DNA from: a virus
Reading direction: 5' to 3' (one strand)
DNA length: 48,065 nt
Virus record (IMG/VR): IMGVR_UViG_3300026130_000423
Coordinates: 1 to 48,065 of that record
The position numbers and the translations under genes are program-made. Below, piece by piece: positions 19,478-45,648 of the stretch (position 1 is its first letter; the number at the start of each line of letters is the position of its first letter). The notes under the pieces were generated by a model. The model saw nothing but the letters and a program-made list of their open reading frames with translations, was not told the origin of the DNA and made no database searches.

Positions 19478-20031
19478 TTTTTCCATCCAAAAAAGTTAAA
19501 CATGTACTTAGTGTGTAGTCCCATATTAAGTCCGCCGTGCCAGTCTTGCCAATCGTCCCATTCGTATACATCTCCTTGAGATGCATTGTATATTGCATGA
19601 CCGTCTATAATTGATACTTGTCCAAAGGACGGCTCGCAAATATAACATGTGTAATGATACAGATATCCTTTTGACAGCCATTCTCTTTCTTGGTCTGGAT
19701 CTTTATAGTCAGGGTGCCACGGGACCATATAACCCGGAGGTACTGCGCTTACCCAAGCTCCTGCAGGTTCAACACCTAGCCAATTTGCAAACTTTTCTAC
19801 CCATTCGATATCAAAATGCTCTCCGGGTAAGAAATCGATCCAGTGTATATCAGGACTATCTTTAATTCCTTTATGTTCCCATAACTTCATTAAGTTTTGT
19901 ACTTTTTCATTATCTATATGGATATCGTCGCTCTGCTCTGATCCCCTTTCACGAGGAGCTACGTTTTTTAAAACAGACATTAACTCATTCCATTTCATAA
20001 AGTCATTTGAATTGCCGATAAATTGTGCCAT
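19474..20031 (-). CDS. 2OG-Fe(II) oxygenase, tandem paralogue 1
   Basis: The protein has 185 residues. GAWVSAVPPGYMVPWHPDYK supplies HxD (His106, Asp108), and the distal ligand is His165 in DDWQDWHGGLN. It ends in KYMFNFFGWKK, matching KYMFHFLGIQ of the gene upstream, so the two are tandem paralogues. It follows that gene with a TAATG one-base overlap. The DWHGG block is shared with the oxygenase at 9278-10084. The conserved N-terminal IGN/KW segment may contact the substrate. Confidence 0.78.
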   Translation of the reverse strand: MAQFIGNSNDFMKWNELMSVLKNVAPRERGSEQSDDIHIDNEKVQNLMKLWEHKGIKDSPDIHWIDFLPGEHFDIEWVEKFANWLGVEPAGAWVSAVPPGYMVPWHPDYKDPDQEREWLSKGYLYHYTCYICEPSFGQVSIIDGHAIYNASQGDVYEWDDWQDWHGGLNMGLHTKYMFNFFGWKK

Positions 20032-20576
20032 TATTGTATTCCTAAAAAATGAAACATATACTTGTCATGTAATCCGCAGTTTCCGCCAGCATGCCAATTT
20101 AAATAGTGATCCCATTTGTATGTATTTCCAGATGTTTCGCAGTGAAAGCATTGGTCTTCAAGCAAAAACACACCTCCAGGATGAGGCTGACTTATAAACG
20201 TACTAAACCTTACTACTTCTCCCTGTGCTAAGTAATCTTCAATATTATCATCAATATCTTGATGTATAGGGGCATACTTGCCTGGTCGAATTTTGCTTAT
20301 CCACGCCCTTGCACATTTCATTCCTACATAATCTTCAAATTTTCTAACAGGTAAGATATCAAAGTGTTTTTCAGGATAGAAATTAATCCACTCAACAGTG
20401 CTTACTTTATCGTAACCAGCACCTTTGAGCATTTTAATATTTTTATCAAATCTTCCGTCAGCATTTTTGTAAAAGCTCTCGTTAAAAGTACGGAGTTCAC
20501 CCTGCTGAGTTTCAAGAAGATCTATGATGCTATCCCATTTTCCTGCAAAGAAATTTCCTATAAATTCTGCTGCCAT
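20031..20576 (-). CDS. 2OG-Fe(II) oxygenase, tandem paralogue 2
   Basis: The protein has 181 residues and is built like its neighbour at 19474-20031. ARAWISKIRPGKYAPIHQDI gives HxD (His105, Asp107), the sequence RFSTFISQPHPGG forms a barrel strand, and NWHAGGNCGLHDKYMF carries the distal His162. It has a good AGGA site 7 bases before the ATG and an 8-base gap from the gene upstream. The sequence YDKVSTVEWINFYPEKHFDI is matched in the paralogue by IHWIDFLPGEHFDI, showing duplication with later divergence. Confidence 0.78.
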   Translation of the reverse strand: MAAEFIGNFFAGKWDSIIDLLETQQGELRTFNESFYKNADGRFDKNIKMLKGAGYDKVSTVEWINFYPEKHFDILPVRKFEDYVGMKCARAWISKIRPGKYAPIHQDIDDNIEDYLAQGEVVRFSTFISQPHPGGVFLLEDQCFHCETSGNTYKWDHYLNWHAGGNCGLHDKYMFHFLGIQ

Positions 20577-20584
20577 TACTTTTC

Positions 20585-21226
20585 CTAAAATTTTATAACA
20601 TAATTTTTATATTTTTCAGAACTTCTTCTTATTAATTCTTTATGCCTTTCATCGTCTAGTATTCCAGAACATACTAAAATAACCCTATTGTCTAACACAG
20701 GGTCAGCTCCGTGATAAAAATTTCTATTATCAAAAGAGTAGACAGGCGCTTCTTTTAAAATAGTAGGATAAACCTTTTCCGAAGTGCGTGTTTTGGCTAC
20801 AAAAAATGAATCTTGACCAAAATGCTCTGTCAATAAAACATTGTATCTTTCTGGAGTCTGAGGCATATTTGTATCGTTTTCGTCTTGATGTGGATACAAT
20901 GGGTTTTGATGTAAATTGAAACAAGCTCCAATTAGCTGTTTATACGGTAACTGGTCTAGTAATTTAACAATAGTAGGAAATGTTTCTTCTATTCCAGGAG
21001 CATAATATAATTTATAATTGTCAGACAATTTGTATCCAACGTCTTTTCCAAAAATATCAGCTTTTGATCTCCAGTCATTAACTTTATGTCTAACAACTAT
21101 AGGAGCTAACTTAGAAGTATATTCTAAATCTTTAACATAATTGTTTTTAATAAAACTTAATAACTGTACTTTATCAACTGTACTACTATCAAATTCTATG
21201 TCTATCGGCGTATAAGCTACTTTCAT
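20585..21226 (-). CDS. 2OG-Fe(II) oxygenase family protein
   Basis: The ATG at 21226 makes a 4-base ATGA overlap with the gene upstream and gives 213 residues. Residues 102-115 (CFNLHQNPLYPHQD) carry HxD (His113, Asp115). NVLLTEHFGQDSFFVAK forms barrel strands. FYHGADPVLDNRVIL has distal His172 and Arg181, which should bind the 2OG carboxylate. The spacing is typical of AlkB-like or DSBH hydroxylases, although the nucleic-acid-binding loop of AlkB is not evident. A TTG at 21247 would extend the protein by seven residues without support. Confidence 0.76.
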   Translation of the reverse strand: MKVAYTPIDIEFDSSTVDKVQLLSFIKNNYVKDLEYTSKLAPIVVRHKVNDWRSKADIFGKDVGYKLSDNYKLYYAPGIEETFPTIVKLLDQLPYKQLIGACFNLHQNPLYPHQDENDTNMPQTPERYNVLLTEHFGQDSFFVAKTRTSEKVYPTILKEAPVYSFDNRNFYHGADPVLDNRVILVCSGILDDERHKELIRRSSEKYKNYVIKF

Positions 21227-21882
21227 AAGTACTCTACCCCGAAACAAGACGGTAACTTTTTAATTAATTCGTCAACCTTTGTTTCTTCAACGTCAAATTG
21301 TACAAAATCATCATGCTTTACAAAGTTTGTAATAATTGATGCTTTATTTGCAAAATTAAGCCAAGTACTGATATGGTTATCAAACTTATACCTATAATCA
21401 TAAACTAATTCTGTAATTGCTAACTTAACTGTTACAGGCGATATTAACTTATTTTTAGCTAGTAACTTTCTTACAACTAACTGGAACCTATCGTACGAAC
21501 CGTAATTAGAAGCAGTATGTATCCTTCCGGCATCCATTTCGTACCAGTAACCGTCTGTTTTTAATAAGTGCATTGTTTGGGAGTCTAAATCTATTAAATA
21601 TGACTGCTCGCATTGTAAAGTTAGATGCCATCTATCGTCTATATCTGCATGTGCCATATACGATTCTCCTGGCTTGAGCTTAATAACTCTAGCTTCTCCT
21701 TTATCATATGGCAAAGACTCTAGTATGCTTTCCCATACAGTACCTTTTAAATCAGTGTTTATGACCCAAGGATCGTAAAAAAAGTTACCTGTAGGACAAT
21801 TTAACACAGTTTTTGGTTTAGTAAAATCTAATAATGGAGATACTTTATTAAAGTCAACGGAGTGTTCAGTTCTTTGTAGCAT
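21223..21882 (-). CDS. 2OG-Fe(II) oxygenase, AspH-like, first gene of operon
   Basis: The protein has 219 residues. ARVIKLKPGESYMAHADIDD gives HxD (His78, Asp80). WHLTLQCEQSYLIDLD forms strands. EMDAGRIHTASNYGSYDRFQ has distal His122 and Arg132. The IHTASN...R arrangement is that of the AspH-like branch. The remaining 85 residues form a C-terminal domain with YRYKFDNHISTWLNFANKA. It opens the operon that runs to 14037. Its ATG is exactly 5 bases from the ACTAAATA box of element C, so its mRNA is predicted to lack a leader. Confidence 0.78.
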   Translation of the reverse strand: MLQRTEHSVDFNKVSPLLDFTKPKTVLNCPTGNFFYDPWVINTDLKGTVWESILESLPYDKGEARVIKLKPGESYMAHADIDDRWHLTLQCEQSYLIDLDSQTMHLLKTDGYWYEMDAGRIHTASNYGSYDRFQLVVRKLLAKNKLISPVTVKLAITELVYDYRYKFDNHISTWLNFANKASIITNFVKHDDFVQFDVEETKVDELIKKLPSCFGVEYL

Positions 21883-21909: not shown

Positions 21910-22590
21910 ATGAATTTATATCTGAAGCGTGAATGGGAACGTATTGGAGTAAGCCTAAGCGGCGGTGCTGATAGCGCTCTGTTAGCGTATCTAATTTGTA
22001 TCGAATCTAATGCCGATATACACTTTACTACCCAAATAAGATTGTGGAAAACAAGGCCATGGGCTGAGCACATTGCTGAAAATGTTGTTGGCTGGTTTCG
22101 AGATAGATTTAATAATAAATTTTATCATCACAAAAACTTAGTACCGCCTGAGTTAGAAGAACCTACTGAATACTTAATTAAAGACGAATACGGTAAAATG
22201 AAGCCTGGAAATAGAATTATCTTAAGGTCTCATAATGAATATATTGCCCATAAATTTAAATTGAATGCACTGTACGGTGGAGTAAACTTAAACCCGGACA
22301 TAGAGTTCGAAGGCAGAGTTAAAGAAAGAGATACTGGGCACATACTTCCACATTTCATCCATGACGGGGTTGACATTTGTCATCCGTTCGTGTATACTCG
22401 TAAAGATTGGATTATCGAACAATATTACAAACACAACATTCTTGACCTTTTAAATATTACTCGTAGTTGCGAAGGCGAGTTTGAAGATATAACTTATAAG
22501 ACATATACACCAGGACAATATGTTCCTACATGCGGCAAATGTTTTTGGTGCAAAGAACGAGGATGGGCTATTGAAAAAGCAATCAAATAG
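21910..22590 (+). CDS. QueC-like PP-loop ATPase
   Basis: The 226 residues match QueC/ExsB-type proteins in length and layout. The PP-loop is VSLSGGADSALLAYL (residues 17-22 hold SGGADS), which binds ATP and activates an acid by adenylation. A C-terminal zinc-type cysteine cluster appears in RSCEGEFED and PTCGKCFWCKERGWA, as in the CxxC-rich end of QueC. In QueC the enzyme turns carboxy-deazaguanine into preQ0, but no QueD or QueE partners are seen here, and the middle of the protein is divergent. It may instead amidate or adenylate another carboxylate. It shares a transcript and a 20-base overlap with the radical SAM gene at 22571. Confidence 0.7.
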   Translation: MNLYLKREWERIGVSLSGGADSALLAYLICIESNADIHFTTQIRLWKTRPWAEHIAENVVGWFRDRFNNKFYHHKNLVPPELEEPTEYLIKDEYGKMKPGNRIILRSHNEYIAHKFKLNALYGGVNLNPDIEFEGRVKERDTGHILPHFIHDGVDICHPFVYTRKDWIIEQYYKHNILDLLNITRSCEGEFEDITYKTYTPGQYVPTCGKCFWCKERGWAIEKAIK

Positions 22591-23845
22591 TTGTACATTT
22601 TGTATGCACCCTTTTACAGGACTTGCTACACGCGAAGACGGTGCTATTAAAATTTGCTGCCGTAGTCAACCTATTGGATGGATACAAAAAGAATCAATCG
22701 AAGAGGCATGGAACGGTGATGCTATACGTGAAGTACGTAGACAAGTACTAAACAACGAGCGTCCAGACGTGTGTAAGCCGTGCTTTGACCTTGAAGATCA
22801 GGGTGTACAGAGCTTACGACAGCGCCATACAGCAGGTGTTATACCCGAAGCTAGAATCAACTTATACCCTAACGCACTAGACGCTTTAAACGACGATTTT
22901 ACAATGCCTTTTGAAATTCCTACAATGGAAATCAAGATTAATAACTTATGTAATTTAAAATGTCGTATGTGCAATCCGCTTGATAGCACTAGCTGGAAAG
23001 ATTGGGATCAAGTTACTGAATTTTATAAAAAAGAAAACAACTATCTTATTCCTACGGTGGACGCTCTAGTAGACAAGCCAGGACAATACATCGGACCATT
23101 TGACAATTCGGACAATTGGTGGAGTAGTTTCGAAAAATTGTTACCGTATTTTAGACGGGTAGAGTTTGCAGGCGGCGAGCCGCTAATGGATCCATACCAC
23201 TACAAAATATTAGACAAGCTTGCAGAGTACGGTCATCAGATAGAACTAAAGTACGCTACAAACGGCACTACGCTAGGTATAAAAGGCGGACGTACAATAT
23301 ACGACTATTGGCCTAAGTTTAAATCAATCGCTGTAAACGTGAGCATAGACGGCTTACACGATGTCTATGAATACATTAGAGGAAATGGTAAATTCAGCGA
23401 GATAGAAGAAAACGTTGAAGTGTTTAAAAGTTTTCCTAATGTAAGTCGTGTAGTAGGTGCGTTTACAGTACAAGCAAATAACATTATGCAAATAGACCAA
23501 GTGATAGACTACTTTATTAATAAAATGGGCATTGTGTTTTACTCGCATAGAGTAAATTATCCTATGTCACTTTCTGCGCAAGTACTTCCGCCCAAGTTAA
23601 AGGAAAAGGTAGTAAGAAGACTTGAAGACATGAAGACTAAAGTTTTAGACTATCCTATGGTGCAAGCAAATGACCTTTTAAAGAAAGTTACGTTACAACA
23701 AATACAAGACAACATTAACTTTTTGCAGGCGAAATGTATGTATGATACACACTGGAAAGATTGTGTAGAATTTAATAAAAGATTAGACAATACCCGAGGA
23801 CAAGATTTCCTTGCAACCAATCCTGAGTTTGCACTATATGTATAA
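22571..23845 (+). CDS. N-terminal twitch-domain radical SAM enzyme
   Basis: Starting at TTG 22571 (GAGG 8 bases before it) the protein has 424 residues. It begins with the Cys-rich segment CTFCMHPF...KICC and VCKPC, the auxiliary-cluster layout of N-terminal twitch radical SAM proteins. The radical SAM motif is NNLCNLKCRMC (C127, C131, C134). EFAGGEPLMDP and LKYATNGT follow, and then VNVSIDG. The family is related to peptide- and sugar-modifying SPASM/twitch enzymes. Paralogues lie at 25704, 32896 and 40654. An ATG further downstream would remove the first two cysteines, so TTG is preferred. Confidence 0.83.
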   Translation: MKKQSNSCTFCMHPFTGLATREDGAIKICCRSQPIGWIQKESIEEAWNGDAIREVRRQVLNNERPDVCKPCFDLEDQGVQSLRQRHTAGVIPEARINLYPNALDALNDDFTMPFEIPTMEIKINNLCNLKCRMCNPLDSTSWKDWDQVTEFYKKENNYLIPTVDALVDKPGQYIGPFDNSDNWWSSFEKLLPYFRRVEFAGGEPLMDPYHYKILDKLAEYGHQIELKYATNGTTLGIKGGRTIYDYWPKFKSIAVNVSIDGLHDVYEYIRGNGKFSEIEENVEVFKSFPNVSRVVGAFTVQANNIMQIDQVIDYFINKMGIVFYSHRVNYPMSLSAQVLPPKLKEKVVRRLEDMKTKVLDYPMVQANDLLKKVTLQQIQDNINFLQAKCMYDTHWKDCVEFNKRLDNTRGQDFLATNPEFALYV

Positions 23846-24740
23846 AGTAGAAAGTCGCTGGCAGCATCAAGATTCAATTAAAGTAGAATGGAATATCGGT
23901 AAGCGATGTAATTTAGACTGCACGTACTGTCCTGCAGAAATACACGATAACTTTAGTCCGCATACAAACATAAAAGTAATGCTAGACACAATAGATGCAC
24001 TAGCTGAACTAGACAAGCCAGTACGACTTAGTTTTACGGGCGGCGAACCTTGTGTGCATCCGGATATTGCAGATATAGTAGATCATGCTGCACAAAGATT
24101 AGACTGGATTAACATAACAACCAACGGCACACTTCCGCCTAAATTTTATGATAAGCTTCCAGTAAATCATTATGTTTTTAGCCTACATGTTGAAGAGGAC
24201 GATAACTGGCAGAGATGTGCCAATAATGTGTTGTTTTGGTCGCAGCTAAACGAGACAGGAAGGAAAATTCCTTTTCAAGTTAATCTAATGGCGCATCACG
24301 ATCATATAGACAGAGTAAAAGCCTGTGCAACTATGTTCGACGGACACGGTATTCCGTATGTTGTAAGACGCATACGTTGGACAGAAAAGCACGACTGGTT
24401 TGATGATCTAAAATATAAACCAGAAGACTTACAATGGCTATTGGCTCAGAAGTCGACAGCTAAACCAAACTGCGTTATTGACGACAAAGAACTAGCACAC
24501 GCCAACGACATTATTAAAGAACATCGTAACCAGTTCGAAGGGTGGACTTGTGCAGCTGGTATTCAAAGCCTAATGATAAATTGGGACGGTGAAGTTCATC
24601 GTGCTACTTGCAGGGTAGGCGGAAGTTTAGGTAACATCTATAATGGAAATTTTGAAGCGCCTGAAGATTGGATAACCTGCACACGTAAATGGTGTACGTG
24701 TGCAGCAGACATACCCCTTACTAAGATTGCCACTTTGTAA
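23838..24740 (+). CDS. radical SAM enzyme with C-terminal Cys-rich domain
   Basis: With the ATG at 23838 the protein has 300 residues. EWNIGKRCNLDCTYC holds the cluster cysteines (C24, C28, C31), then LSFTGGEPCVHPD and NITTNGT. The C-terminus has TCAAGIQSLMINWDGEVHRAT, then TCRVGG and CTRKWCTCAAD. This is a SPASM-like auxiliary-cluster region. It resembles the proteins at 24721 and 27681. It overlaps the upstream radical SAM gene by 8 bases, so the two are probably made together. Its end overlaps the next, convergent, gene by 20 bases. Confidence 0.83.
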   Translation: MYKVESRWQHQDSIKVEWNIGKRCNLDCTYCPAEIHDNFSPHTNIKVMLDTIDALAELDKPVRLSFTGGEPCVHPDIADIVDHAAQRLDWINITTNGTLPPKFYDKLPVNHYVFSLHVEEDDNWQRCANNVLFWSQLNETGRKIPFQVNLMAHHDHIDRVKACATMFDGHGIPYVVRRIRWTEKHDWFDDLKYKPEDLQWLLAQKSTAKPNCVIDDKELAHANDIIKEHRNQFEGWTCAAGIQSLMINWDGEVHRATCRVGGSLGNIYNGNFEAPEDWITCTRKWCTCAADIPLTKIATL

Positions 24741-25707
24741 TATGCGTATCGCTTTGACAGGCACAACAATTTCTATCGCAAATAATATAAGGCTTATCTA
24801 TATTTTTTAAATCATTAGATAAATCTTTTGAATATAAATTTAAATCTGCATTAAACTTAACATTACACGAGCCTGTGATTTTTCCTGACGGAAATATTGT
24901 AATTTTTTCCGATACAACGTTGCACTTCCAGCCTGTAAAATAATTTAATTTATTTACAAGATAATAATTTGAATTTGCAGGAACTATTTTATCGTTTGGA
25001 TATATTGCTATACTTTCAACCATCTTGAAATCGTCAAGATTCTTTAAAATATAATCAGATTCGGGCAATCGCTTTACTGGTTGGCTTAAAAACTTTAGTT
25101 GCTCTTCTGTGCATGATTCAATGTCGTGTCCAGGAGCAGTAACTACTTCTTTTGCAATTATGAACCAATTATACTTACTTTGTTTCATAATTTCTATATC
25201 AGATAAACATTTCTCCCAGTTAAGCGCATCCATTAATACCATAGCATTAATTTTCTTACCATTTTCCCAAATAAGATCTGCAACTTCTATGTAATGATTT
25301 ATATCTGTATATTCGTTATGATAACTTAATAAGACTTCGTCGATATAAGGAATTATAGTTTTCCACCATCGGATTGTACGAGAACCGTTACATGTTAATT
25401 GTATGTAAACATCGTGTTCTTTTTTTATTTCAGTACAAAATTTTACTAAATGCGGCCAAAGTGTTGGTTCTCCGCCGCCGGCTATTTCTAAATGAATTTT
25501 TGTTTTGTTAAATTTGTCTTTATAAAACTTAAATAACTTTCGAAAATTATCTATTACAAAATCAATATCATCTCGGTATCTAAACTTTGCAGGATGACTT
25601 CCTGGAAAACAATAAGAACAATCGAAGTTGCATATATCAGTTGGAAAATATGTTATTACAATATATTCTTGCTCTCGTGTGTTGACAATTTTTAAAAGAT
25701 CTGTCAT
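24721..25707 (-). CDS. radical SAM enzyme with C-terminal Cys-rich domain
   Basis: The protein has 328 residues. ITYFPTDICNFDCSYC gives C26, C30 and C33. EIAGGGEPTLWPHL is the GGEP block, and LTCNGSRT follows. The C-terminal region has KCNVVSEKITIFPSGKITGS leading to CNV, and ICDRNCCACQSD, a likely auxiliary-cluster site. It overlaps the next radical SAM gene by 4 bases (ATGA), and it convergently overlaps the 23838 gene by 20 bases. It is the last gene of the long minus-strand run from 45595. Confidence 0.82.
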   Translation of the reverse strand: MTDLLKIVNTREQEYIVITYFPTDICNFDCSYCFPGSHPAKFRYRDDIDFVIDNFRKLFKFYKDKFNKTKIHLEIAGGGEPTLWPHLVKFCTEIKKEHDVYIQLTCNGSRTIRWWKTIIPYIDEVLLSYHNEYTDINHYIEVADLIWENGKKINAMVLMDALNWEKCLSDIEIMKQSKYNWFIIAKEVVTAPGHDIESCTEEQLKFLSQPVKRLPESDYILKNLDDFKMVESIAIYPNDKIVPANSNYYLVNKLNYFTGWKCNVVSEKITIFPSGKITGSCNVKFNADLNLYSKDLSNDLKNIDKPYIICDRNCCACQSDTHITKWQS

Positions 25708-27095
25708 AATAAATGTCCTAATTCTGGGAAAATTTTTGCTGCACTTAACCCTCTAATATTATCAAGTTTGTTTGTGTACTCTTTAAATCCTGGAAGTAAG
25801 TGGCTGTTGTCTTGTGCGTTCATATGGTTAAGGACAGCTTCCCATCGTTTCCACCCGTACGGATTATGCTTCCAGAAGTCGTCGTCTTGTCTATAGTTAT
25901 GCCACAGCCAGTCTTTAAACTCCATAAAGCGTTCTTCAACTTCTTGCTTATCTTCTTTAGGAAGTATTTGTATACTTAAAAATGTTGGTATGTATAATAA
26001 GTGCATGTTAACTAAGCCACCGCCCATTTGCACTCCGCCAGGAACTGTTCCGCTATTTAATTTTTTAAATCCTGCTCCTAACTTCCATTTCATAAAATCA
26101 GGCAAATGCTTGACGTTAAAAATTTGTATTGCTGTTGCTAGACTTGTTTGAATGTTATCCGGTGTGTTATCAAGCATATGAAGTGTACGTTCTACTGTAT
26201 CCCAATCAGTAGGGTAGCGAATATACTCATCGCGTTCGTGCGATGCGTCCATACTTACTGCAAACTTAACTTTTTTAAACTTACTCCATAGCTCAATTAA
26301 ATCTTCGTCTACTAACAAACCGTTTGAGTTATAACGAAGTAGTATTTTATCTTGATACCCTTGCCGAACAATTTCTTCAATAAACATTTTGTGCTCTTTA
26401 ATCATTAAGGGCTCTCCGCCAGCAAAGTATACTTGACGTAGATTAGGAATTTGCTTATACATTTCTTCCCAAAATGTATCTTTTTCGTGCCAAAAGTTAT
26501 TAAACTCTTTACGATCCCACTGCATTTGTCGTTTAACTTCTGGATCTTGTAGGACTGGGATTAAGTTTTTATGATCTGCTACCCATTTACTACTATCGTG
26601 CGGACTACACATTACACATTTAATATTACAAGTATGTCCTAACCGTAAGTCTAAGTATTTTAAGTTTTCAGGAATAGTTCCGTCTTCTTTAGTTTGGCGA
26701 ATAAGTTCAGGAATGTCAACACCTGCATCTTTGTCTTGGTACCACGTTCCTGTTTCCCAAATACGTTTACTTACTACTCCTAGTTTTTCTTCTTCAAAAC
26801 ATTTAACACAGCTAGTAGGTATTTTACCATTGAGCATAGTTTTACGAACACTTTTCATATAATCGTTATTCCATGCTTCCATAGGCGTATGTTTTCCGAA
26901 ATTTGCAGGACGGCCATCTTCCATTTTAACTAACCCTACTTCGTGATCTTTACCTGCGCCACTTGCATTTGCAGAGCAACATAGACGCATGTCTCCATTA
27001 GGGCGTGTTGCGAAATGTATCCAAGGAAGTACACAAAAGGTAGGTGTCCCAGATACTTTTTCTATTTCTTGTTGGTACTTTTTTAAGTCAGACAC
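25704..27095 (-). CDS. N-terminal twitch-domain radical SAM enzyme
   Basis: The protein has 463 residues. It opens with TFCVLPWIHFATRPNGDMRL leading to CC (C21, C39, C40), then TSCVKCFEEE. The radical SAM motif is GHTCNIKCVMC (C156, C160, C163), followed by VYFAGGEPLMIKEH and LLRYNSNG, then KFAVSMDAS. The form is the FCxxPWIHxxxxxxGxxxxCC layout seen in many cyanophage and bacterial twitch radical SAM proteins. Its ATG is in a TAATG overlap with the methyltransferase gene upstream, suggesting coordinated action. Confidence 0.83.
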   Translation of the reverse strand: MSDLKKYQQEIEKVSGTPTFCVLPWIHFATRPNGDMRLCCSANASGAGKDHEVGLVKMEDGRPANFGKHTPMEAWNNDYMKSVRKTMLNGKIPTSCVKCFEEEKLGVVSKRIWETGTWYQDKDAGVDIPELIRQTKEDGTIPENLKYLDLRLGHTCNIKCVMCSPHDSSKWVADHKNLIPVLQDPEVKRQMQWDRKEFNNFWHEKDTFWEEMYKQIPNLRQVYFAGGEPLMIKEHKMFIEEIVRQGYQDKILLRYNSNGLLVDEDLIELWSKFKKVKFAVSMDASHERDEYIRYPTDWDTVERTLHMLDNTPDNIQTSLATAIQIFNVKHLPDFMKWKLGAGFKKLNSGTVPGGVQMGGGLVNMHLLYIPTFLSIQILPKEDKQEVEERFMEFKDWLWHNYRQDDDFWKHNPYGWKRWEAVLNHMNAQDNSHLLPGFKEYTNKLDNIRGLSAAKIFPELGHLL

Positions 27096-27691
27096 TATTG
27101 TTTTCTTCCTATAATCATAAAACGAGTGTATTTTGGAGTGTCAAAATTACCTCGCCATAGTGGTTTAATTTTGCTCATACTTGTAAATTCGTCTAAATTT
27201 GAAGAGCACCTTATATGTTCGTCTATGTCAAAGTAATTATTGCTTTGTAATACAATTAGTGACGTATCTGGTACATTACTCAACCATTGCTCGTATTGTT
27301 CTTGTGTAATGTGTTCGCAACTTGTATTAATTACAACGTCAGCAGGTTCGTTGTAATTACACATGTCTGCTGTTACTGCACAAAACATTCCATTCATTTC
27401 GTACGGCTTGTTTATTGTAGTTGCAATTTCTTCGCAAGTAGGATCTATATCAACACTTGTTATATGTCTTGTCTTTAGCTCGCTGTTAAAAATAAGACTA
27501 GCAAGTACACCATTCCATCCACCATAAATAACAATGCTGTGCGGATGTCTAACAAATTTTTCTAGAGTTTCGATCAACCATTGTTTGCTGTGTACTTGAC
27601 CTTTCCAAAAACTTTCTAACGTACGATATCGATCTTCGCTGTTTCGAATTGCATCCATCCAAAAAAGTACATCTTCTAATTCAACTTTCAT
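27095..27691 (-). CDS. class I SAM-dependent methyltransferase-like protein
   Basis: From the ATG at 27691 the protein has 198 residues with AAGG 6-7 bases upstream. HSIVIYGGWNGVLASLIF matches motif I (the G-rich loop, here YGGWNG), ITSVDIDPTCEEIA is motif II with the acidic residue for the ribose, and a VTADMCNY and DVVINTSCEHI pair follows. It lacks the classical GxGxG loop, so AdoMet binding is likely but not certain. The substrate is unknown. It lies between two radical SAM genes with overlaps on both sides, 1 base with the gene below and 11 with the gene above. Confidence 0.65.
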   Translation of the reverse strand: MKVELEDVLFWMDAIRNSEDRYRTLESFWKGQVHSKQWLIETLEKFVRHPHSIVIYGGWNGVLASLIFNSELKTRHITSVDIDPTCEEIATTINKPYEMNGMFCAVTADMCNYNEPADVVINTSCEHITQEQYEQWLSNVPDTSLIVLQSNNYFDIDEHIRCSSNLDEFTSMSKIKPLWRGNFDTPKYTRFMIIGRKQ

Positions 27692-28682
27692 TCTTAACCT
27701 TTGGTAATTTACTGTCTGCACTACTTACACACGACGGAGTAATACACTTAGACGGTGTCTTAAACAGCTTAAAACCGCCCTGTAGCGTGCCTAACGGCTC
27801 ATCATGGCAACTATAGCTTCGTTTAACTTCATGTTCACGTATAACGCATCCTTGATAGCCTGCATTGCAGGTCCAATCCTTAAACTTATTAAACCCGAAC
27901 GCATTTAATCGTTCTGCTTGATCTAAGTTATACTTTTTGCCATTTTTGTCTTCTAGCTCAACTTGGTATAGAGGTATTAATGCTTTGTAATTGTCTGGGA
28001 TTCTTTGAGGGAATCCTTGCTGCATTATTTGCATTTGTTCTTCAGTGTAACCTGTAACAACAAAAGAAGCAGTTGGGTCAGACTGTGGTTTTAGAGTAAC
28101 ATTAATTCCTCTATCAGCAAACCTTTTAAGTCGAGCGTAAAGGTCGTCGAACATTTCAGGAACCATAACTTGGTTGATAGTAACGAATACACCGTTATTC
28201 ATTAGTTGAAGACACTTGTCTCCGAACTCTTGTTCATTAGCAAACTCTGCATGAAAGCTAGCAGTGATGCTTCTACGCTGTAATTTGCTGGTTGCGTCTA
28301 ACCATCTGTTCCACCACTTGCTACCTGGACTTAGATTTGTGGTCATGTGTATGCTTTGGTATTCGGGCGCTGTATCACTACAGTAATGCTCTATAAGCTC
28401 CCCAAAATACTTATACGCAGTAGGCTCTCCTCCGCTAAAACTGAAATGAAAGTTCTTAAATCCGTTTTCGCGAGCTTGCCTTTTTATTTCATCTAGTGTA
28501 TTTTTATATGTTTCAAGTGTTTGATGATCAGGAGTACTACTGCGAGCATACGGCCAACAGTACGAACAATTGTAATTACAGAATCGTGCAAGTATCCATG
28601 ACACTGTAAATAAATCAGTACCTAGCAGGGTTTTTTGACCCAACTTTGTTATATCATTCCACGGTATATTTGTTGTTGTCAT
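27681..28682 (-). CDS. radical SAM enzyme with C-terminal Cys-rich domain
   Basis: The protein has 333 residues. VSWILARFCNYNCSYC gives C35, C39 and C42, FSFSGGEPTAYKY is the GGEP block, and IHMTTNLS follows. Near the end, TCNAGYQGCVI, YSCHDEP and KCITPSCVSS form a Cys-rich auxiliary-cluster region. The layout matches the 23838 and 24721 products. It overlaps the gene above by 29 bases and the methyltransferase below by 11 bases. Confidence 0.82.
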   Translation of the reverse strand: MTTTNIPWNDITKLGQKTLLGTDLFTVSWILARFCNYNCSYCWPYARSSTPDHQTLETYKNTLDEIKRQARENGFKNFHFSFSGGEPTAYKYFGELIEHYCSDTAPEYQSIHMTTNLSPGSKWWNRWLDATSKLQRRSITASFHAEFANEQEFGDKCLQLMNNGVFVTINQVMVPEMFDDLYARLKRFADRGINVTLKPQSDPTASFVVTGYTEEQMQIMQQGFPQRIPDNYKALIPLYQVELEDKNGKKYNLDQAERLNAFGFNKFKDWTCNAGYQGCVIREHEVKRSYSCHDEPLGTLQGGFKLFKTPSKCITPSCVSSADSKLPKVKNES

Positions 28683-29715
28683 CGTAAACTGCTTTGCTAC
28701 ACTGTCTTGTACAAGTTAAACATTTGTTTTTTCCTTGCCAAAATTCCGGCAATCTTTCAAATAAATTTTTATTGCTATCTAAAATATTTTCACTACAATT
28801 AGGAACACCGATTTCTTCGAGTATGCTTTTTGTATTTTCTACACTGAGATTTCTAAGATAATGTATAGGCAATTTTTCTTCGATAGGATGCTCTACGTAG
28901 TCCCCTCCAAGCCAACAACAAGGAAATATATTACCGTAAGGATCTACATAGATACCTTGTTCGCTTATACATTTAGGATCTATTGTTGCTGCTTCGATTG
29001 CAGCATTGCGTATTTTAACATCAACTAGTGCATTTAAGCTCTTATTAGGAGTGCGTTTAAATCGATCGGTCTGGGCAGGTTTTATAGTATACTCTATATT
29101 GTTACTATTATCGTATACATTGTATCCTGACATGCCATAGAATCGTACAGTGCTTACAAAATTAACACTACGCACACCTAAATTTAATAGGTAATCTTCG
29201 AGCATGTCTGCTTCTAGTTCGTTGTGCTGAAACACTAGGCTATCGACTCTTGCATTGCCACCTGCATCAATAAATGCTTTTAGATTTTCTATTACTTTAT
29301 CAAACTTAGTGTTTTTACGATATAGTTCATGCTTTCCTTTAAACCCGTCAACAGCAAAAACTACTTCAATATTGTACTGTGCTAATTTAGCCCACCACTC
29401 TGGGTTCCGCATACCTCCATTTGTATGGATAGCCAATCTAACTGTAGGATTGCATTCGCGCACATATGCATATATCTGCAAACAGTCTTTTGCAAATGCA
29501 GGATCGCCGTAATTGCCACAACTATAAAAGTTATTTAATTGAGCTAGAAAATCTTTCGGAAACCATTCTTTAAATTGTTCGAAACTCATGTCACCATTTC
29601 TTATAAACGGACGAGTTTTCCCTCCGTTATAATTTCTAGCACACATAGGACATTGTGCTTGGCACTTGTCAGTAAGTTCGATATGAACCGTCTTTATATC
29701 AGATACTAACTGCAT
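28654..29715 (-). CDS. radical SAM/SPASM enzyme
   Basis: From the ATG at 29715 (AGGA 8 bases before it) the protein has 353 residues. VHIELTDKCQAQCPMC gives C18, C22 and C25, and the SPASM region has CISEQGIYVDPYGNIFPCC with GG following, then CLTCTRQC at the end. The GGEP block is replaced by YSCGNYGDPAF. SPASM enzymes usually modify peptides or sugars and need the additional clusters. The gene overlaps the end of the GT array gene by 17 bases, so it is probably the partner expressed with it from the early promoter at 32879. Confidence 0.83.
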   Translation of the reverse strand: MQLVSDIKTVHIELTDKCQAQCPMCARNYNGGKTRPFIRNGDMSFEQFKEWFPKDFLAQLNNFYSCGNYGDPAFAKDCLQIYAYVRECNPTVRLAIHTNGGMRNPEWWAKLAQYNIEVVFAVDGFKGKHELYRKNTKFDKVIENLKAFIDAGGNARVDSLVFQHNELEADMLEDYLLNLGVRSVNFVSTVRFYGMSGYNVYDNSNNIEYTIKPAQTDRFKRTPNKSLNALVDVKIRNAAIEAATIDPKCISEQGIYVDPYGNIFPCCWLGGDYVEHPIEEKLPIHYLRNLSVENTKSILEEIGVPNCSENILDSNKNLFERLPEFWQGKNKCLTCTRQCSKAVYDDNNKYTVE

Positions 29716-32700
29716 TAAACTGTTCCTGCAACCAATCAAAGTTGTTTATGAGTTTTAAGTTTTCCGGATTATCGATATTAGCATATCCAAAATCTCTACC
29801 AGCAATTGCTCCGGCTATTGCATAATTTCCTAACGGAGAATTGCTACCTTCAGTACACCATACCTTTAGTCGTTCTTCTGTTTCGTCATCTACTTGGCCC
29901 TGAATTGTCCTACTTGCTAATTTAACACATTCACGGAACGCACTTTTCCAAGTATTAAACGGATCTGTATTAAATGCTGTAATGTTAGATACTTGTTGCA
30001 TTGCTTTAAATGACGGGCTAATGCTAGTTGTCATATCTGCACTATTTACGTCAACTTTAAGAGTTAAACTCTTAGGTAGTAATTTTACGCCGCCATAACC
30101 GTATTCTAAGTCATTTATAGGATTTCGACTACGCCAAACGTGTACCATTGATTTTGTGTATGTGTCGTGATTTGGTATCTGTTCAAAATCAAAGTAGAAG
30201 TCTTTGGTTATTTTTGCATCGCCGTCTACTACCCAAAACATGTCAGTAACTGAAAGTTTTGCAGCTTCAATATGTGCTTGATGAATACCTTTAACACCGT
30301 GTACACGTTTTGCTCTTGGGAATCGTTTTAGTAACTCTTGGTAGTTTTCTTCTGCGTTTGGCTCTTGGTAAGATATAAACACAATATCAAACGGTTTAGG
30401 AGTAGACGCAGTAATATCCCATACCTTTTTGTTTGTAAGGAAGCTATAAGAAAATTCTTTTTCAGTAATGACACTGTGCTTGCTGCATAAAAATACACCA
30501 TCGTAAAAGTCGCCGTTCTTAAATACGTGATTCTGTGTTCTGTCAAATTTGTTGTCGTGTGTAAAATACGTATCAAACTTAAAGTCATTACAAACATCAA
30601 CTCTGTTTGTCGGTACTGACCAAAACATTTCTGTCTTAGAGTTGTCTAATGCTTTTAGATATTCCTCATAGGAGTTTACGTCAAAAACATCGTACTTCAC
30701 AGGACCGCTTGCAACAACGTTCCATTCTTTTCTATCAACAGGATGTCTATGTTCGACTTCTCGTTTAGTCAACAGATTATGTTTACTACACAGTATTGCA
30801 CCATTATACAAATCTTTGTCATCTACTTGATGTATAAATGCATGATTTTGTTTTCTATCGTATTCGTTATCAAATGTAAAGTATATTTCTGGATCAGTAA
30901 AAGAAATATTTCTACTTGACATCCAGAACATTTCTGTTTTACTTGTTTCAACCGCAAGCTCGTACTCGTCATACGAATCAATTTCAAACACATCGTACTT
31001 CACAGGACCACTTGCTACAACTTCGTGCTCAATTCTACTAACTGGAAATCTATGTTCTACTTCTCTCTTACTTAGAGGAGCGTTTTTGCTACATAGAAAA
31101 ACACCATTGTATAACTGCTTGTCTTCTACTTGATGAATAAATGCGTGATTCTGGTCTCGTTCTACTATATCAAAATGCGAGTGTGCAGGTATATGGTATA
31201 AGTAATAGTCATCGACAATGCTATCATTAAATAGAACATTTCTACTCGACATCCAGAACATTTCTGTTTTACTTGTTTCAAGGGCTTCTAAGTACTCGTT
31301 GTATGAATCGATTTCAAACACTTCAAATGTCTGTACAGTACTTGCTAAGATATCCCATTCTTTCCTATTAACAGGGAATCGGTGCTCAACTTCTCGTTTG
31401 CTTAGTGGAGTACGTTTACTTAACAGCATCAGACCGTTGTTAAGTACTTCTTTGCCAAACTTATGATTAAACACGTGATTTTGTTGACGGTCATAAGAAT
31501 TATGATGACTAAAGTACATGTTTAAATCAAATGTATCAAGAACCTTAATATTTCTTGACGAAGCCCAGAACATTTCTGTAGAACTATTTTCTAAAGCGTA
31601 CTTGTATTCTTCATAAGAGTCGATATTGTAAAAATCGTACTGCTTTGGAGTACTTGCAAGAATATCCCATTCTTTCTTATTAGTAAGAAATCTGTATCCG
31701 AATTCTTTTTTAGAAATTTTAGAATAAGTTGACGCAAGTATTATGCCGTCGTAAAAGTCGCCATTCTTGAATACATGATTTATTGTTCTATCAAATTTAT
31801 TATCGTGCGTAAAGTACGTATCAAATTTAAAATTATCGTCGGCATCGACGTCACTTGGTACGACCCAAAACATTTCTGTGTTAGTTGTTTCGAAGGCTTC
31901 GAGATAATCTTCATATGTGTTTACATTAAATACATCATATTTCACAGGTCCACTTGCTACGATATCGTGTTCTTTTCTGTTGACAGGGAATCTGTGCTCA
32001 ACTTCTCGCTTGCTTAGTGGAGCATGTTTGCTACATAGAAAAACACCATTGTATAAATCAATATCTCCTACTCGATGTATAAATGCATGATTTTGTTTTC
32101 TGTCGTATGTATTGTGTAGAGAAAAGTAAATAGCAGGAAGATCAGCAGTTAAATTTCTACTACTCATCCAAAACAAATCATTTGTGCTGTTTTCAAGTGC
32201 TTCTAAATATTCCTCGTAAGAATCGATTTCAAATACTTCGTAAGGTTTAGGAGTACTTGCGTTAATATCAATTTCTTTTTTGTTAGAAAAGAATCTATGT
32301 TCAAACTCTCGCTTTGCAATCTCAGTATCTTTGTGCACTAAAAATAAGCCATCAAAGAACTCACCGTTCTTAAAAATATGTACAGTGTCTTTTTCCCAGT
32401 AAGGTATTTGATAGTCGAAATCAAAAGCAACATCTACGTCACTAGGAATAACCCAAACAAACTCAGTTGTTGCAGATTGTCTCAAATCATTAAATTCTTG
32501 GTATGTGCTTGGATTGATTACTGCATATTCAGCAGGTGTCGAAGCAAGTACATCAACTTCTTTTTTGTTAGTAAAGAAACGATATTTTATTTCTCTTGCT
32601 GACGGAGACGATGCTTTAGGTACTAAACAAATGCCATCGTAATACTCGTTGTTTTTAAAAACGTGTATGTATTCTTGGCTCCATTCGTCTGGTACATAAC

Positions 32701-32872
32701 TAAAATCAAAATCGTCAGCTACACTGACATTATCCCACACTATCCAGAAAAACTTTGTAAAGGATACCTTTTTAGCGTGGGCAAAATCTTTAGCATACTT
32801 AGCGGCAGGAAAGCGCTCTTTAAGAGCACTCCACTGTTCATTTTTTTGTCCTAAAAATATTATATCATACAT
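29699..32872 (-). CDS. giant tandem array of glycosyltransferase-like modules
   Basis: This 1057-residue protein consists of nine modules of about 95-110 residues and a longer last one. Module boundaries are at about residues 118, 213, 314, 414, 518, 628, 729 and 830. Only the last module (831-1057) has a plausible GT-A metal motif, DMFWVVDGDAK (D883, D885), followed by HVWRSRNPINDLEYGYGGVK. It matches the stand-alone GT at 42027-42968. The others keep TEMFW and NHxFxxxxxxYNG but have SSRN or PSDVD at the DxD position. The array looks like a chain of inactive glycosyltransferase modules with one active end. A perfect sigma70 promoter lies directly upstream. Its function is unknown; a scaffold or sugar-binding ruler is an inference. 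Confidence 0.85.
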   Translation of the reverse strand: MYDIIFLGQKNEQWSALKERFPAAKYAKDFAHAKKVSFTKFFWIVWDNVSVADDFDFSYVPDEWSQEYIHVFKNNEYYDGICLVPKASSPSAREIKYRFFTNKKEVDVLASTPAEYAVINPSTYQEFNDLRQSATTEFVWVIPSDVDVAFDFDYQIPYWEKDTVHIFKNGEFFDGLFLVHKDTEIAKREFEHRFFSNKKEIDINASTPKPYEVFEIDSYEEYLEALENSTNDLFWMSSRNLTADLPAIYFSLHNTYDRKQNHAFIHRVGDIDLYNGVFLCSKHAPLSKREVEHRFPVNRKEHDIVASGPVKYDVFNVNTYEDYLEAFETTNTEMFWVVPSDVDADDNFKFDTYFTHDNKFDRTINHVFKNGDFYDGIILASTYSKISKKEFGYRFLTNKKEWDILASTPKQYDFYNIDSYEEYKYALENSSTEMFWASSRNIKVLDTFDLNMYFSHHNSYDRQQNHVFNHKFGKEVLNNGLMLLSKRTPLSKREVEHRFPVNRKEWDILASTVQTFEVFEIDSYNEYLEALETSKTEMFWMSSRNVLFNDSIVDDYYLYHIPAHSHFDIVERDQNHAFIHQVEDKQLYNGVFLCSKNAPLSKREVEHRFPVSRIEHEVVASGPVKYDVFEIDSYDEYELAVETSKTEMFWMSSRNISFTDPEIYFTFDNEYDRKQNHAFIHQVDDKDLYNGAILCSKHNLLTKREVEHRHPVDRKEWNVVASGPVKYDVFDVNSYEEYLKALDNSKTEMFWSVPTNRVDVCNDFKFDTYFTHDNKFDRTQNHVFKNGDFYDGVFLCSKHSVITEKEFSYSFLTNKKVWDITASTPKPFDIVFISYQEPNAEENYQELLKRFPRAKRVHGVKGIHQAHIEAAKLSVTDMFWVVDGDAKITKDFYFDFEQIPNHDTYTKSMVHVWRSRNPINDLEYGYGGVKLLPKSLTLKVDVNSADMTTSISPSFKAMQQVSNITAFNTDPFNTWKSAFRECVKLASRTIQGQVDDETEERLKVWCTEGSNSPLGNYAIAGAIAGRDFGYANIDNPENLKLINNFDWLQEQFNAVSI
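30383..32518 (-). repeat. seven coding repeats (modules 2-8) of the glycosyltransferase array
   Basis: Modules 2-8 begin with a (F/Y)(E/D)(I/V)(D/N)SYxEYLxALE helix, then TEMFW, then NHxFxxxxxxYNGxxLxSK, then a xKREVEHRFPVxRKE hinge. Two types are mixed. Type 1 (modules 2, 4, 8) has PSDVD or PTNRVD and FKNGDFYDG; type 2 (modules 3, 5, 6, 7) has SSRN and FIHQVxDKxLYNG. Module 1 (residues 1-118) is a further relative that keeps a DNV at the DxD position. The DNA copies are long enough and similar enough to recombine with each other. Confidence 0.8.
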
Positions 32873-32878: not shown

Positions 32879-32907
32879 ATTATAGCACTACTTTATCAGT
32901 ATGTCAA
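32879..32907 (-). promoter_or_regulatory. perfect sigma70 promoter (TTGACA-17-TATAAT) before the GT array
   Basis: On the minus strand TTGACA (32907-32902) and TATAAT (32884-32879) are separated by exactly 17 bases, and a TGC just before TATAAT adds an extended -10. This is a full consensus for the host's main sigma factor and hence an early-phage signal. The ATG (32872) is 6 bases past TATAAT, about where +1 is expected, so the transcript would have no leader and no ribosome binding site. The -35 lies in the last codons of the gene upstream. Confidence 0.8.
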
Positions 32908-34413
32908 CGTTTTACATTGATTATAAAAATCTTTTAATTCTGGAAAAGTTTTTTCAAAGTCTGTGTTTCGTCTTGCATCGTGTTGATCAATATAGTTAGC
33001 AAAATTAATACGATTAATTTTTTGGTCTTCAGGACTTTCTATAAACATTTTTAAGTTGCGTTCTGCTTTTGCTATTTCAAAATCATAGAACCCTGCAAAG
33101 TCGTCAACGTTTGCATTTTCCTTCATAAAGTTAATACCTTCTTGTATGTACGTTGCAAACTCGATAGGTAGTATGTGCATTGCATGCCACGCAGGATTTC
33201 TCAGCAACGGAATATCAAACCATATGCGCTGGCGAGGATGTATTTCATAATCAGGATGCTTAGTGTAAGGATCGTGTATAGGAATATACTTAATACCTTG
33301 ATTAGTTCTACTGTATTGCTTGCGCAGTTCTAGTATGTACTGCAAGAAGTCTTTAAACTTAGGCAAGCTAAGTGCGTTAAATGTATTAATAAATGTAAGA
33401 GTTGTATTATGTGTTTCAGATAAGAAACGTTCTACATTTTCTTGCATGTATGCATAATTTAAATTAGAACGAATATACTCTGCTTGTTCACCTACACTAT
33501 CTACACTAACAAATACTGCAAAGTTTTTAAGTGCAGGATTTACATACCAATGATTACCTGATCCGGGATTAAAACGTTCTTTATCTTCCCAAATTTGTAT
33601 CTCTTCTAACTTTTTAGTTTTTTCAATAAACTTGTCCATTAGCTCTTGTTTAGGAGGACTCATGTTACTTGTAATACTAAGCTCTAGCCATGTGTTAGGA
33701 TGCTCGTATATGTAATCTAGTACTTTAAACATATTAGCGTCCATTAGTGGCTCACCGCCAGTAATACGAAATACTTCCAGCTTTTTATAAAGTTCTGGCC
33801 ACCAACGCCAAAAAGCTTCTACATAAATGTTATCTGCTTGTTTCACTTTAGCAGGCATAAAGCCTTGTTCTTTTAGTGCATTAACATCGTTGTGCTTTTG
33901 TTCGTTTCCGCTTGCATCAATGATTTTTAACGGTCCGTGCTCGTTTACTTCTTTTTCCCACTCTGTTGACAGGTGCGGGCTACAGTACATGCACTTTAGA
34001 TTACATGCTTGATTAAAATTAACTTCGACATAGCGAGGTGTTACATCACCAGTATCTAATGAATCAAAGATATCGCTTCTTGCATTTTGTGCCCAGTATT
34101 CTCCTGAGCGATATATCCGGTCGCTTCTGCCGCCAGCGTCTTCTATTTTCCAGCAGTATGAACAACCGTTTGGACGTTCACCTTTGAGCATTAACGATCT
34201 TTCTTGTTTCTTTTGTTTTGTGTTATGCAATGCACTTGGCTTTCGCATTACTGCATCTGGATCCATTTTATGCAAAGGAGGATGGTAGCAACTGTGAGTC
34301 ATACCATTAGTTAGATGCATACTAACTTGTGCCCACTTTGCATAACACATTGTATTGCTTATTTTATTAAGTTGTTTTTCTGCTGTATCAGCTGCTTTAT
34401 CGTAATCGCTCAT
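32896..34413 (-). CDS. N-terminal twitch-domain radical SAM enzyme
   Basis: This 505-residue protein begins MCYAKWAQVSMHLTNG and HSCYHPPLHKMDPDA, continues PSALHNTKQKKQERSLMLKG and GCSYCWKIEDAGG, and reaches the radical SAM motif at VNFNQACNLKCMYC (C137, C141, C144). FRITGGEPLMDAN and LSITSNMS follow, then VFVSVDSVG. The N-terminal cysteines (C23, C42, C84, C87) form the twitch-type auxiliary site. It is very close in layout to the 40654-42027 protein. AGGGG lies before the ATG, which follows directly on the stop of the SGNH-like gene. Confidence 0.84.
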   Translation of the reverse strand: MSDYDKAADTAEKQLNKISNTMCYAKWAQVSMHLTNGMTHSCYHPPLHKMDPDAVMRKPSALHNTKQKKQERSLMLKGERPNGCSYCWKIEDAGGRSDRIYRSGEYWAQNARSDIFDSLDTGDVTPRYVEVNFNQACNLKCMYCSPHLSTEWEKEVNEHGPLKIIDASGNEQKHNDVNALKEQGFMPAKVKQADNIYVEAFWRWWPELYKKLEVFRITGGEPLMDANMFKVLDYIYEHPNTWLELSITSNMSPPKQELMDKFIEKTKKLEEIQIWEDKERFNPGSGNHWYVNPALKNFAVFVSVDSVGEQAEYIRSNLNYAYMQENVERFLSETHNTTLTFINTFNALSLPKFKDFLQYILELRKQYSRTNQGIKYIPIHDPYTKHPDYEIHPRQRIWFDIPLLRNPAWHAMHILPIEFATYIQEGINFMKENANVDDFAGFYDFEIAKAERNLKMFIESPEDQKINRINFANYIDQHDARRNTDFEKTFPELKDFYNQCKTLTY

Positions 34414-40653: not shown

Positions 40654-42027
40654 TTAATCGTTTGGCACTACTAACTGTTTGCATCTGTTAAAGAAGTCTT
40701 CCATCTCCGGGAAAGTTTCTAGGAAGTTAACATTACGTCTACGATCGTATTCTGTGAACCAATTATAAAAGTCTTTGCGACCTTCAATCACTCGCTCTTC
40801 ATCGTACTGTTTAGTAGCAAAGTAATTACGAACTCTACGGAATCTTTCGTATTCCAACTCGCTAAACTTAGTAGTATCCTTTTCGTCAGTGTTATCTTTA
40901 ATAAAGTTTAATATTTTATCAAAGTAAGGCAAGAATTCTTCTTTAGGAAGAATATGCATATCGTACTGTAACGGCTCTTTAAGATACGGTGTATCGAAAC
41001 GGATACGTCTACGTCTAGGATCGTGATATAGTTTTCTCCACTCTAAAACTTTCTCTAAGAACAAATTAAAGCTAGTTACGCTTAAAATATTAAATGTACA
41101 CATGATTGTTAGATCAGCACCAGTAGTGTCTAAGTAACGTTTCATGTTTTCTTCCCACAACTTAACATCAAGTCCTGTACGTAAATATTCAGCACGTTCG
41201 TCAAACGTATCCATACTAGAATACATTTTAAATTTCTTAATCTTTTTAGTTTCTAGTAGTTCTTTTACGTTTTCTCCTAGTTTAGTAACTAGTCTTGGAC
41301 TAATACCTAAGTTACTGTTTAGATTAAGTTCTATATTAGGACGAGGATTTTCCTTTAACTCGTCAAATATTCTCCAAGTACTTTTGTGCATAAGAGGCTC
41401 GCCTCCTGTGATACGCAGAATATTAAGAGTTTTACTTAATTCAGGCCACCACTTCCACCATGCTTGCACATAAGGATTTTCGTCCTCTGCCATTGGCTTA
41501 AACCAATCAATATCTAATGCATGGTTGTTAACACCTTCAACTTTACCAAACTTTTTAATTTCTGCATGATATGCACTACTTGCCATAGGATGGCAATAAC
41601 CGCACTTAAAGTTACACTCGTTACTAAATGCAACTTCTACATATTCCGGATTTACGTTAAAGTCCCAAGGGTTAGATAATATTTCTTCTACACGTTCGGG
41701 CTTATAGATAGAAGCGTTTCGAATGTGTCTATCTGATATATGGTCGTCACCTAATGATTCAACATTCCAACAGTACTGACAGCCTTCACACTTTACGCCT
41801 GTGAGCATCTTTGCTCGTTCTTTCTTTTTGTGAAGTGTATTATGCAATGCACTAGGATTCACTTGAATCTCTTCAAGAGGAATACGATGCGGTGCAGGAT
41901 GATAACAACTATGTGTGTCACCCGTATGCAAATAAATTGTGGTGTGATGCCATTTTGCTAAACAAAAGGTAGGACTTATTTCGTTAATAATAGGTTGATT
42001 TTCTCGTATGCGATCTGTTTCTGACAT
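40654..42027 (-). CDS. N-terminal twitch-domain radical SAM enzyme
   Basis: The protein has 457 residues. It opens TFCLAKWHHTTIYLHTGDTH followed by SCYHPAPHR, then PSALHNTLHKKKERAKMLTG and GCQYCWNVES (C22, C41, C80, C83, C86). The radical SAM motif is FSNECNFKCGYC (C138, C142, C145), with ILRITGGEPLMHKS next and LNLNSNLG. Apart from the central part it follows the 32896-34413 protein block by block. It is one base from the DGD-type GT gene (TAATG), so the two products may act together on a sugar. Confidence 0.84.
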   Translation of the reverse strand: MSETDRIRENQPIINEISPTFCLAKWHHTTIYLHTGDTHSCYHPAPHRIPLEEIQVNPSALHNTLHKKKERAKMLTGVKCEGCQYCWNVESLGDDHISDRHIRNASIYKPERVEEILSNPWDFNVNPEYVEVAFSNECNFKCGYCHPMASSAYHAEIKKFGKVEGVNNHALDIDWFKPMAEDENPYVQAWWKWWPELSKTLNILRITGGEPLMHKSTWRIFDELKENPRPNIELNLNSNLGISPRLVTKLGENVKELLETKKIKKFKMYSSMDTFDERAEYLRTGLDVKLWEENMKRYLDTTGADLTIMCTFNILSVTSFNLFLEKVLEWRKLYHDPRRRRIRFDTPYLKEPLQYDMHILPKEEFLPYFDKILNFIKDNTDEKDTTKFSELEYERFRRVRNYFATKQYDEERVIEGRKDFYNWFTEYDRRRNVNFLETFPEMEDFFNRCKQLVVPND

Positions 42028-43564: not shown

Positions 43565-43565
43565 G

Positions 43566-45595: not shown

Positions 45596-45599
45596 AAAA

Positions 45600-45640
45600 A
45601 TACTCCTATAACTATACTAATTATACAGTCATAGGAGTAT
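45600..45640 (-). promoter_or_regulatory. hairpin that would mask the ribosome binding site on read-through mRNA
   Basis: ATACTCCTAT (45600-45609) and ATAGGAGTAT (45631-45640) are perfect 10-bp inverted repeats separated by 21 bases. The arm nearest the gene contains the TAGGAG ribosome binding site. The far arm lies between the -35 and -10 of the sigma70 promoter, so transcripts from that promoter (start near 45613) lack it and cannot fold. Only read-through RNA from the genes above would fold and hide the site. T4 genes e, soc and 49 are known to use this logic. Five Ts follow the stem, so weak termination is also possible. Confidence 0.6.
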
Positions 45641-45648
45641 GTTGTCAA
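45620..45648 (-). promoter_or_regulatory. perfect sigma70 promoter (TTGACA-17-TATAAT) before the GT8 operon
   Basis: On the minus strand TTGACA (45648-45643) and TATAAT (45625-45620) are 17 bases apart, both full consensus. Transcription would start near 45613 and leave a leader of about 18 bases that holds TAGGAGT. Host RNA polymerase should recognise it early in infection. Its genes are the small phage protein, two GT8-like proteins, a DGD-type GT and a radical SAM enzyme. Confidence 0.8.

Follow-up and report, generated by a model that had tools for sequence, protein, structure and literature searches.

LH3 has an accessory glycosyltransferase (GT)-like domain, and O-GlcNAc transferase carries a TPR arm N-terminal to its GT-B domain that holds the protein substrate. 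Here, we describe a phage protein that can be compared with both. Like LH3 and K4CP, it appears to join an active GT-A domain to other GT-A-like domains, and entries for both enzymes are among its fold matches over 456-500 columns. LH3 and K4CP, however, have one extra full-size domain, whereas the family described here has up to 16 half-size modules, all of them without a DxD motif. The protein has a repeat arm N-terminal to the GT, as O-GlcNAc transferase does; this arm is under selection and may hold the substrate. Yet the arm of O-GlcNAc transferase is built of TPR helices, whereas the arm reported here has no TPR match in Pfam, is predicted to consist of the GT-A fold itself and is highly variable in length. 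Passages on the O-antigen chain-length ruler WbdD (PMC3482155) and on the counting mechanism of PglH (PMC5792488) share the idea that glycan length is governed by the size of a protein or by multiple binding sites, but both proteins differ from ours in architecture and no homology to them was found. The gene setting matches the pelagimyophage host recognition cluster as portrayed in parts of PMC7029224, i.e., tail fibres, many GTs and radical SAM genes in a cluster that ends at a neck gene. The same parts argue that GTs of these islands modify the host O-chain, and the passages of that paper on glycosyltransferases, radical SAM, hypervariable regions and repeats mention no repeat-armed GT.

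The protein is encoded in a window of 48,065 nucleotides, by which we mean the whole stretch of DNA analysed (IMG/VR virus record IMGVR_UViG_3300026130_000423, positions 1 to 48,065). An initial annotation of this DNA had described a chain of 1057 residues with nine units at 29699-32872, and the open reading frame was found there on the minus strand, with an ATG start. An N-terminal cap module is followed by seven interior modules of ~100 residues, which fall into two types, A and B, and by a C-terminal GT-A-like domain of 236 residues. The eight modules measure 95-110 residues each when borders are set at 'ASxP', and score 88-140 bits with an iterated module HMM, far beyond chance; the C-terminal domain scores weakly, at 35 bits. 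Module 1 (residues 1-109; 32546-32872), the cap, retains the beta1-alpha1 unit (YDIIFLG...WSALKERFP). Next come the B-like module 2 (PSDVD; 110-204; 32261-32545), the type A module 3 (SSRN, NHAFIH and YNG; 205-305; 31958-32260), the type B module 4 (PSDVD, NHVFKN and YDG; 306-405; 31658-31957) and modules 5 (406-509; 31346-31657), 6 (510-619; 31016-31345) and 7 (620-720; 30713-31015), all of type A. The type B module 8 (PTNRVD; 721-821; 30410-30712) adjoins the C-terminal domain (822-1057; 29702-30409), which has the conserved motifs HGVxGIHxAHI, DxDA, VHVWxSxNP, YGYGxxKLxP, DMTTSI and FREC; all these features lie on the minus strand. The DGD motif sits at D883-D885 (30218-30226), as first annotated. 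Module DNA is ~60-84% identical from copy to copy and the longest exact match between modules of this gene is 34 bases. As the copies have diverged and long exact repeats are absent, the array is old in this genome, and a recent expansion of the modules was ruled out.

Profile comparison aligned the modules to the C-terminal domain (hhalign probability 97.7, E 1.4e-12) and the C-terminal domain to a stand-alone GT paralogue of 313 residues at 42027-42968 on the minus strand (hhalign 99.95, 35% identity, 221 columns). The proposed closeness of the final unit to this enzyme was thus borne out. The claim that every module repeats the pattern of the stand-alone GT needs correcting in one respect: modules and stand-alone GT gave no direct match (hhalign probability 0.1). 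In comparison with the C-terminal domain, interior modules lack ~28 residues that comprise alpha1-beta2 (between beta1 and alpha2, the helix before the FW strand). With this stretch and the first Asp missing, the modules do not contain the complete GT-A nucleotide-binding half with its DxD. Structures were predicted with AlphaFold2 for modules 7-8 plus the end domain (mean pLDDT 89.8) and for modules 3-5 (pLDDT 95.6, pTM 0.86). With the former model, 46 PDB entries matched at E ≤ 0.001; most are GT-A enzymes, and some are nucleotidyltransferases. The matches include RmlT, WrtF, SunS, ppGalNAc-T, K4CP and LH3 (E ~1e-3 down to 3.5e-5), with TM-scores that are low because the query consists of three domains; many of the GT-A enzymes matched act on proteins or polysaccharides. 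GT-A enzymes also ranked first in the PDB for modules 3-5, at a non-significant level (best E 0.078, probability 0.87). In a viral structure library, the same model matched the uncharacterised proteins A0A6J5LK21 and A0A6J5L5L5 of uncultured Caudovirales phages over 345-346 columns (E 1.6e-8 and 8.8e-7, respectively); with 10-11% identity and no annotation, these are probably more distant repeat proteins.

A sequence search of the PDB with the protein returned nothing, and no family in Pfam, NCBIfam or PHROGs exceeded the cut-off. Weak GT2 matches appeared in 5-8 of 28 family members in the curated-family search (best E 0.0055), and a match to T4 gp9/10 was discarded (E 3.4e-5, below the cut-off, best stretch 27 residues). 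The C-terminal domain is thus predicted to have a GT-A-type fold with a DxD and lies outside the curated GT sequence families of Pfam, NCBIfam and PHROGs, and the modules are, judged from their profiles, shortened and degenerate GT-A-like domains homologous to it. Structure prediction and fold comparison, which had been suggested along with the initial annotation, place modules and last domain in the same GT-A type of fold, with the modules alone staying below significance. Phrase searches of open-licence papers found no protein with an arm of dead GT modules joined to a GT, which, together with Pfam, NCBIfam and PHROGs, agrees with the original impression that no such architecture had been described.

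Sequence at the site of the DxD motif separates the modules from the end domain. SSRN or PSDVD had been reported at this position of the window modules, which is correct for six of the eight: modules 2 and 4 carry PSD and modules 3, 5, 6 and 7 SSRN, whereas module 1 has W-D-N and module 8 PTNRVD. Both DxD positions are Asp in 100% of 44 distinct C-terminal domains of the family (D-[GA]-D). Among 268 distinct middle modules, S, P or T predominates at the first position, where Asp is not common, and the second position holds N in 61% and D in 21%; in 37 first modules the site reads P/W/Y/F and D. From these residues we infer that only the last domain is catalytically active, consistent with the earlier description of degenerate GT-like modules of which only the last has an intact DxD. 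The two intermixed module types that had been noticed differ at several sites together: type A (n=92) has S/T (90%) and N (90%) at the DxD site (S/T-x-N) together with NHxFxH and NG, type B (n=54) has P (81%) and D (55%) (P-x-D) together with NHxFxN and DG. The split was defined by the H/N letter in NHxF[x]H/N, so that this site differs by construction, while the other sites are independent of the definition. In both types, His61 of the profile is invariant and Arg57 is nearly invariant. The A and B residue sets at the former active site may form a binding pocket; the conserved positions could be structural instead.

The family is widespread in IMG/VR, in aquatic phages. A first scan yielded 79 loci and a scan with the end domain at least 564 relatives, of which 80 were kept; as relatives were gathered with patterns from the window protein, their counts represent a biased sample, and contigs may be fragments. 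Five tblastn queries against 50,697 phage records detected no relative, and neither did narrow peptide patterns in 84,980 prokaryote species genomes. The expectation that copy number varies between related phages was confirmed among these IMG/VR relatives, with 135 complete genes ranging from no module (23 genes) to 16 modules (6 genes) in the same slot. One natural zero-module form is encoded by L122 (7995-8699). Because one slot holds 0-16 modules and the one-module form is cap plus GT in 12 of 13 cases, the arm seems to be an add-on to a self-sufficient enzyme. A tree of 85 GT domains, moderately supported (27 of 81 inner branches ≥ 95 with a quick method), requires at least 42 copy-number changes, at least four of them between zero and one or more modules; the eight-module locus L001, the 93% relative of the window, is sister to L085 with a single module. 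Some near relatives are one whole module apart: L012 and L004 differ by one module (104 aa) at 93% identity, and L033 and L002 are identical except for one module of 309 nt, where the junction carries an exact repeat of 58 bp. The latter difference may be an assembly collapse in view of this repeat, and the former is the safer case since each variant occurs in several contigs. Across 23 lineages, the closest neighbour of the first module is again a first module in all 23, and that of the last module is a last module in 18, whereas interior modules are not tied to position. It is thus the interior that expands and contracts, with the cap at one end and the GT at the other staying fixed.

Modules are under purifying selection as strong as that on the GT domain. 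For the window against L001, modules have a dN/dS of 0.06-0.13 and the end domain one of 0.06; in other pairs, with four values of L033/L002 left aside, dN/dS is ~0.02-0.17 in modules and 0.03-0.18 in the end domain. These values, together with intact reading frames, rule out a decaying pseudogene array. As relatives keep 0-16 copies under strong selection, the dead GT copies appear to be working parts. Within the pair L025/L017, dS per module varies from 0 to 2.9, and such unevenness points to mosaic exchange among modules. A three-module super-repeat is present in several copies in L024 (8117-13660), with up to 92% identity between copies.

Selection also acts on arrays that have no GT. In L063, L064 and L065, the array ends in a truncated module, and dN/dS of L063 against L064 and L065 is ~0.06 despite the missing GT. 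On the 236-kb contig behind L065, there are also a second array, which includes a GT (857-aa frame), and a stand-alone GT. Likewise, a 532-aa protein on the 330-kb contig behind L020 consists of cap and modules and has retained no more of the GT than its C-terminal helices, and a complete 858-aa frame is found elsewhere on that contig. Since GT-less arrays stay constrained, arrays seem to have some value apart from a GT on the same chain, and an arm that serves nothing but the GT of its own chain is an incomplete account; the GT-less arrays may work with a GT in trans.

The repeat gene occupies two genomic contexts, neck-adjacent and island, both of which are tail-fibre/host-recognition settings. 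In the neck-adjacent context, it is flanked on one side by a fibre/structural gene, a short gene and, ahead of the array gene, an Anp1-like small GT, and on the other side by NUDIX, tail-sheath-stabiliser, neck-type structural, head-tail adaptor, tail sheath and tail tube genes. In the island context, the end-domain gene directly follows a homologue of the stand-alone GT (P0002-like) in 37 of 77 relatives, and 15 more have it in the same locus. This GT pair comes after fibre-type genes, a 116-aa gene and two ~280-aa genes that look GT-like by eye only and have no Pfam or PHROG match. The window keeps this island gene order at 42027-47837. UDP-glucose dehydrogenase is encoded directly upstream in L001, L060, L067, L077 and L079 (by cluster membership only for L067 and L077), and a methyltransferase-like gene, recognised by eye, and radical SAM genes often lie downstream of the repeat gene. 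In the window, the methyltransferase-like gene (GGWNG...DIDP) is located at 27095-27721, without a match in Pfam, PHROGs or the PDB; its homologues directly follow the repeat gene in 25 adjacencies.

A sugar- or substrate-binding arm, or a scaffold, is the best reading of these data. We tentatively propose, at not quite an even chance, a GT-A-type GT with a length-variable arm of dead GT modules that holds the acceptor. The end domain would transfer a sugar, as its predicted fold and invariant DxD suggest, and neighbouring GTs of the island might add sugars alongside it. The interior modules, which have shed the alpha1-beta2 half of the nucleotide-binding site together with the first Asp while keeping the remaining fold, would serve as non-catalytic sites that grip a long or repetitive acceptor during sugar addition. 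The retained fold, site residues that vary in concert and selection suggest such holding at several dead active sites. The arm is tuned in length as interior modules are gained or lost, which is observed, and the acceptor, to judge by gene position, is probably the phage's own tail fibre, another virion protein or a host surface glycan. This proposal is favoured by the homology of the modules to the GT, the confident models, the loss of DxD in modules only with both parts under selection, and a neighbourhood of sugar chemistry beside fibres. Against it stand the non-significant PDB match of the modules-only model and the many radical SAM genes of the same islands, which it leaves unexplained. 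A bolder version, which we regard as rather unlikely, is a new kind of repeat protein in which a GT fold trimmed to a ~100-aa unit forms ordered A/B modules that read a patterned glycan or fibre and work even where the chain lacks a GT, as it does in L063-L065 and in the second array on the L020 contig. In either form, an enzyme fold has turned into a tandem repeat that is kept under selection at 0-16 copies in one genomic slot of aquatic phages, in a GT family not previously described that sits at the tail-fibre/host-recognition island, the site that decides phage-host recognition. Since nature provides forms with 0, 1, 2 ... 16 modules and forms without a GT, what the arm does is open to direct test.

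The gene neighbourhood permits a different role for the modules, namely that of docking units that gather the modifying enzymes of the island (stand-alone GT, GT-like neighbours, methyltransferase-like gene, radical SAM), with the C-terminal GT being one of several. In many loci (25 adjacencies), the methyltransferase-like gene overlaps the repeat gene by a few bases and is followed by radical SAM, the stand-alone GT homologue comes directly before the repeat gene in 37 of 77 relatives, the Anp1-like GT precedes it in the neck-adjacent context, and an array can lack its own GT. We nevertheless consider a scaffold unlikely, as neighbours are swapped between close relatives (radical SAM upstream in the window vs. 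UDP-glucose dehydrogenase in L001), copy number varies far more than the number of neighbours, and the A/B residue sets are found at the former catalytic site and not on an arbitrary surface. The position of the gene in the neck-adjacent context, between genes for fibres and for neck/tail sheath and at a place where GT-less arrays are under purifying selection, would also suit a structural glycan-binding protein of the virion, a receptor or decoy related to fibres. In most copies, however, the C-terminus is a GT domain whose catalytic-type motifs are invariant, the protein matches no phage structural profile and the island copies are embedded among enzymes, which makes a virion component very unlikely.

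Two further alternatives concern the variation in module number itself. An arm that measures a growing polysaccharide, or the spacing of glycosylation sites, and whose module number sets product length would agree with uniform ~100-aa units in a confident multi-module model, with relatives that differ by whole modules, and with the precedent of O-antigen chain-length rulers in the passages on WbdD (PMC3482155). It is at odds with the zero-module forms in the same slot, with the lack of homology to known rulers and with an in-frame deletion of 207 nt within a module of L029 (9596-12976) relative to L004, seen in a single contig and possibly an assembly effect; we deem a ruler improbable. Finally, the initial annotation had considered that the modules store sequence variants for recombination into the active gene. 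Recombination between modules does occur, as the uneven dS and the L024 super-repeat indicate. Yet the alpha1-beta2 unit is missing from the modules, none of their exact matches to either GT gene is longer than 12 bases, purifying selection acts on them, and GT domains remain one clear family. With no near-identical donor segments, this reading was rejected, and the probability that we leave to it is negligible.

Returning to the preferred reading of a GT with a substrate-holding arm, several deviating architectures and neighbours were recorded around it. In L108, the array (6419-7744) and a module plus GT (7725-8693) occupy two overlapping frames, which is either a natural split or a sequence error. 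L145 (7350-8675) encodes a degenerate, DxD-less relative of the stand-alone GT, fused ahead of an active-looking GT as judged by eye, and thus a second, separate case of a dead GT joined to a live one; L132 (3876-5210) has a similar layout by length and HMM coordinates only. A repeat-rich fibre-like gene without family match is divergent from the repeat gene in L043 (8075-9928), L052 (8125-9954) and L072 (8489-9931). In the window, at least eight radical SAM proteins, two of them with SPASM matches, surround the repeat gene (22520-29739, 32896-34413 and 40654-42027), and three more candidates were recognised by eye at 2709-5926 and 6944-8038. The same island encodes a tryptophan-halogenase-like protein at 10622-12169 (phrog_2928, E 1.9e-95) and, at 18216-21882, a row of short genes that resemble 2OG-Fe(II) oxygenases by eye.
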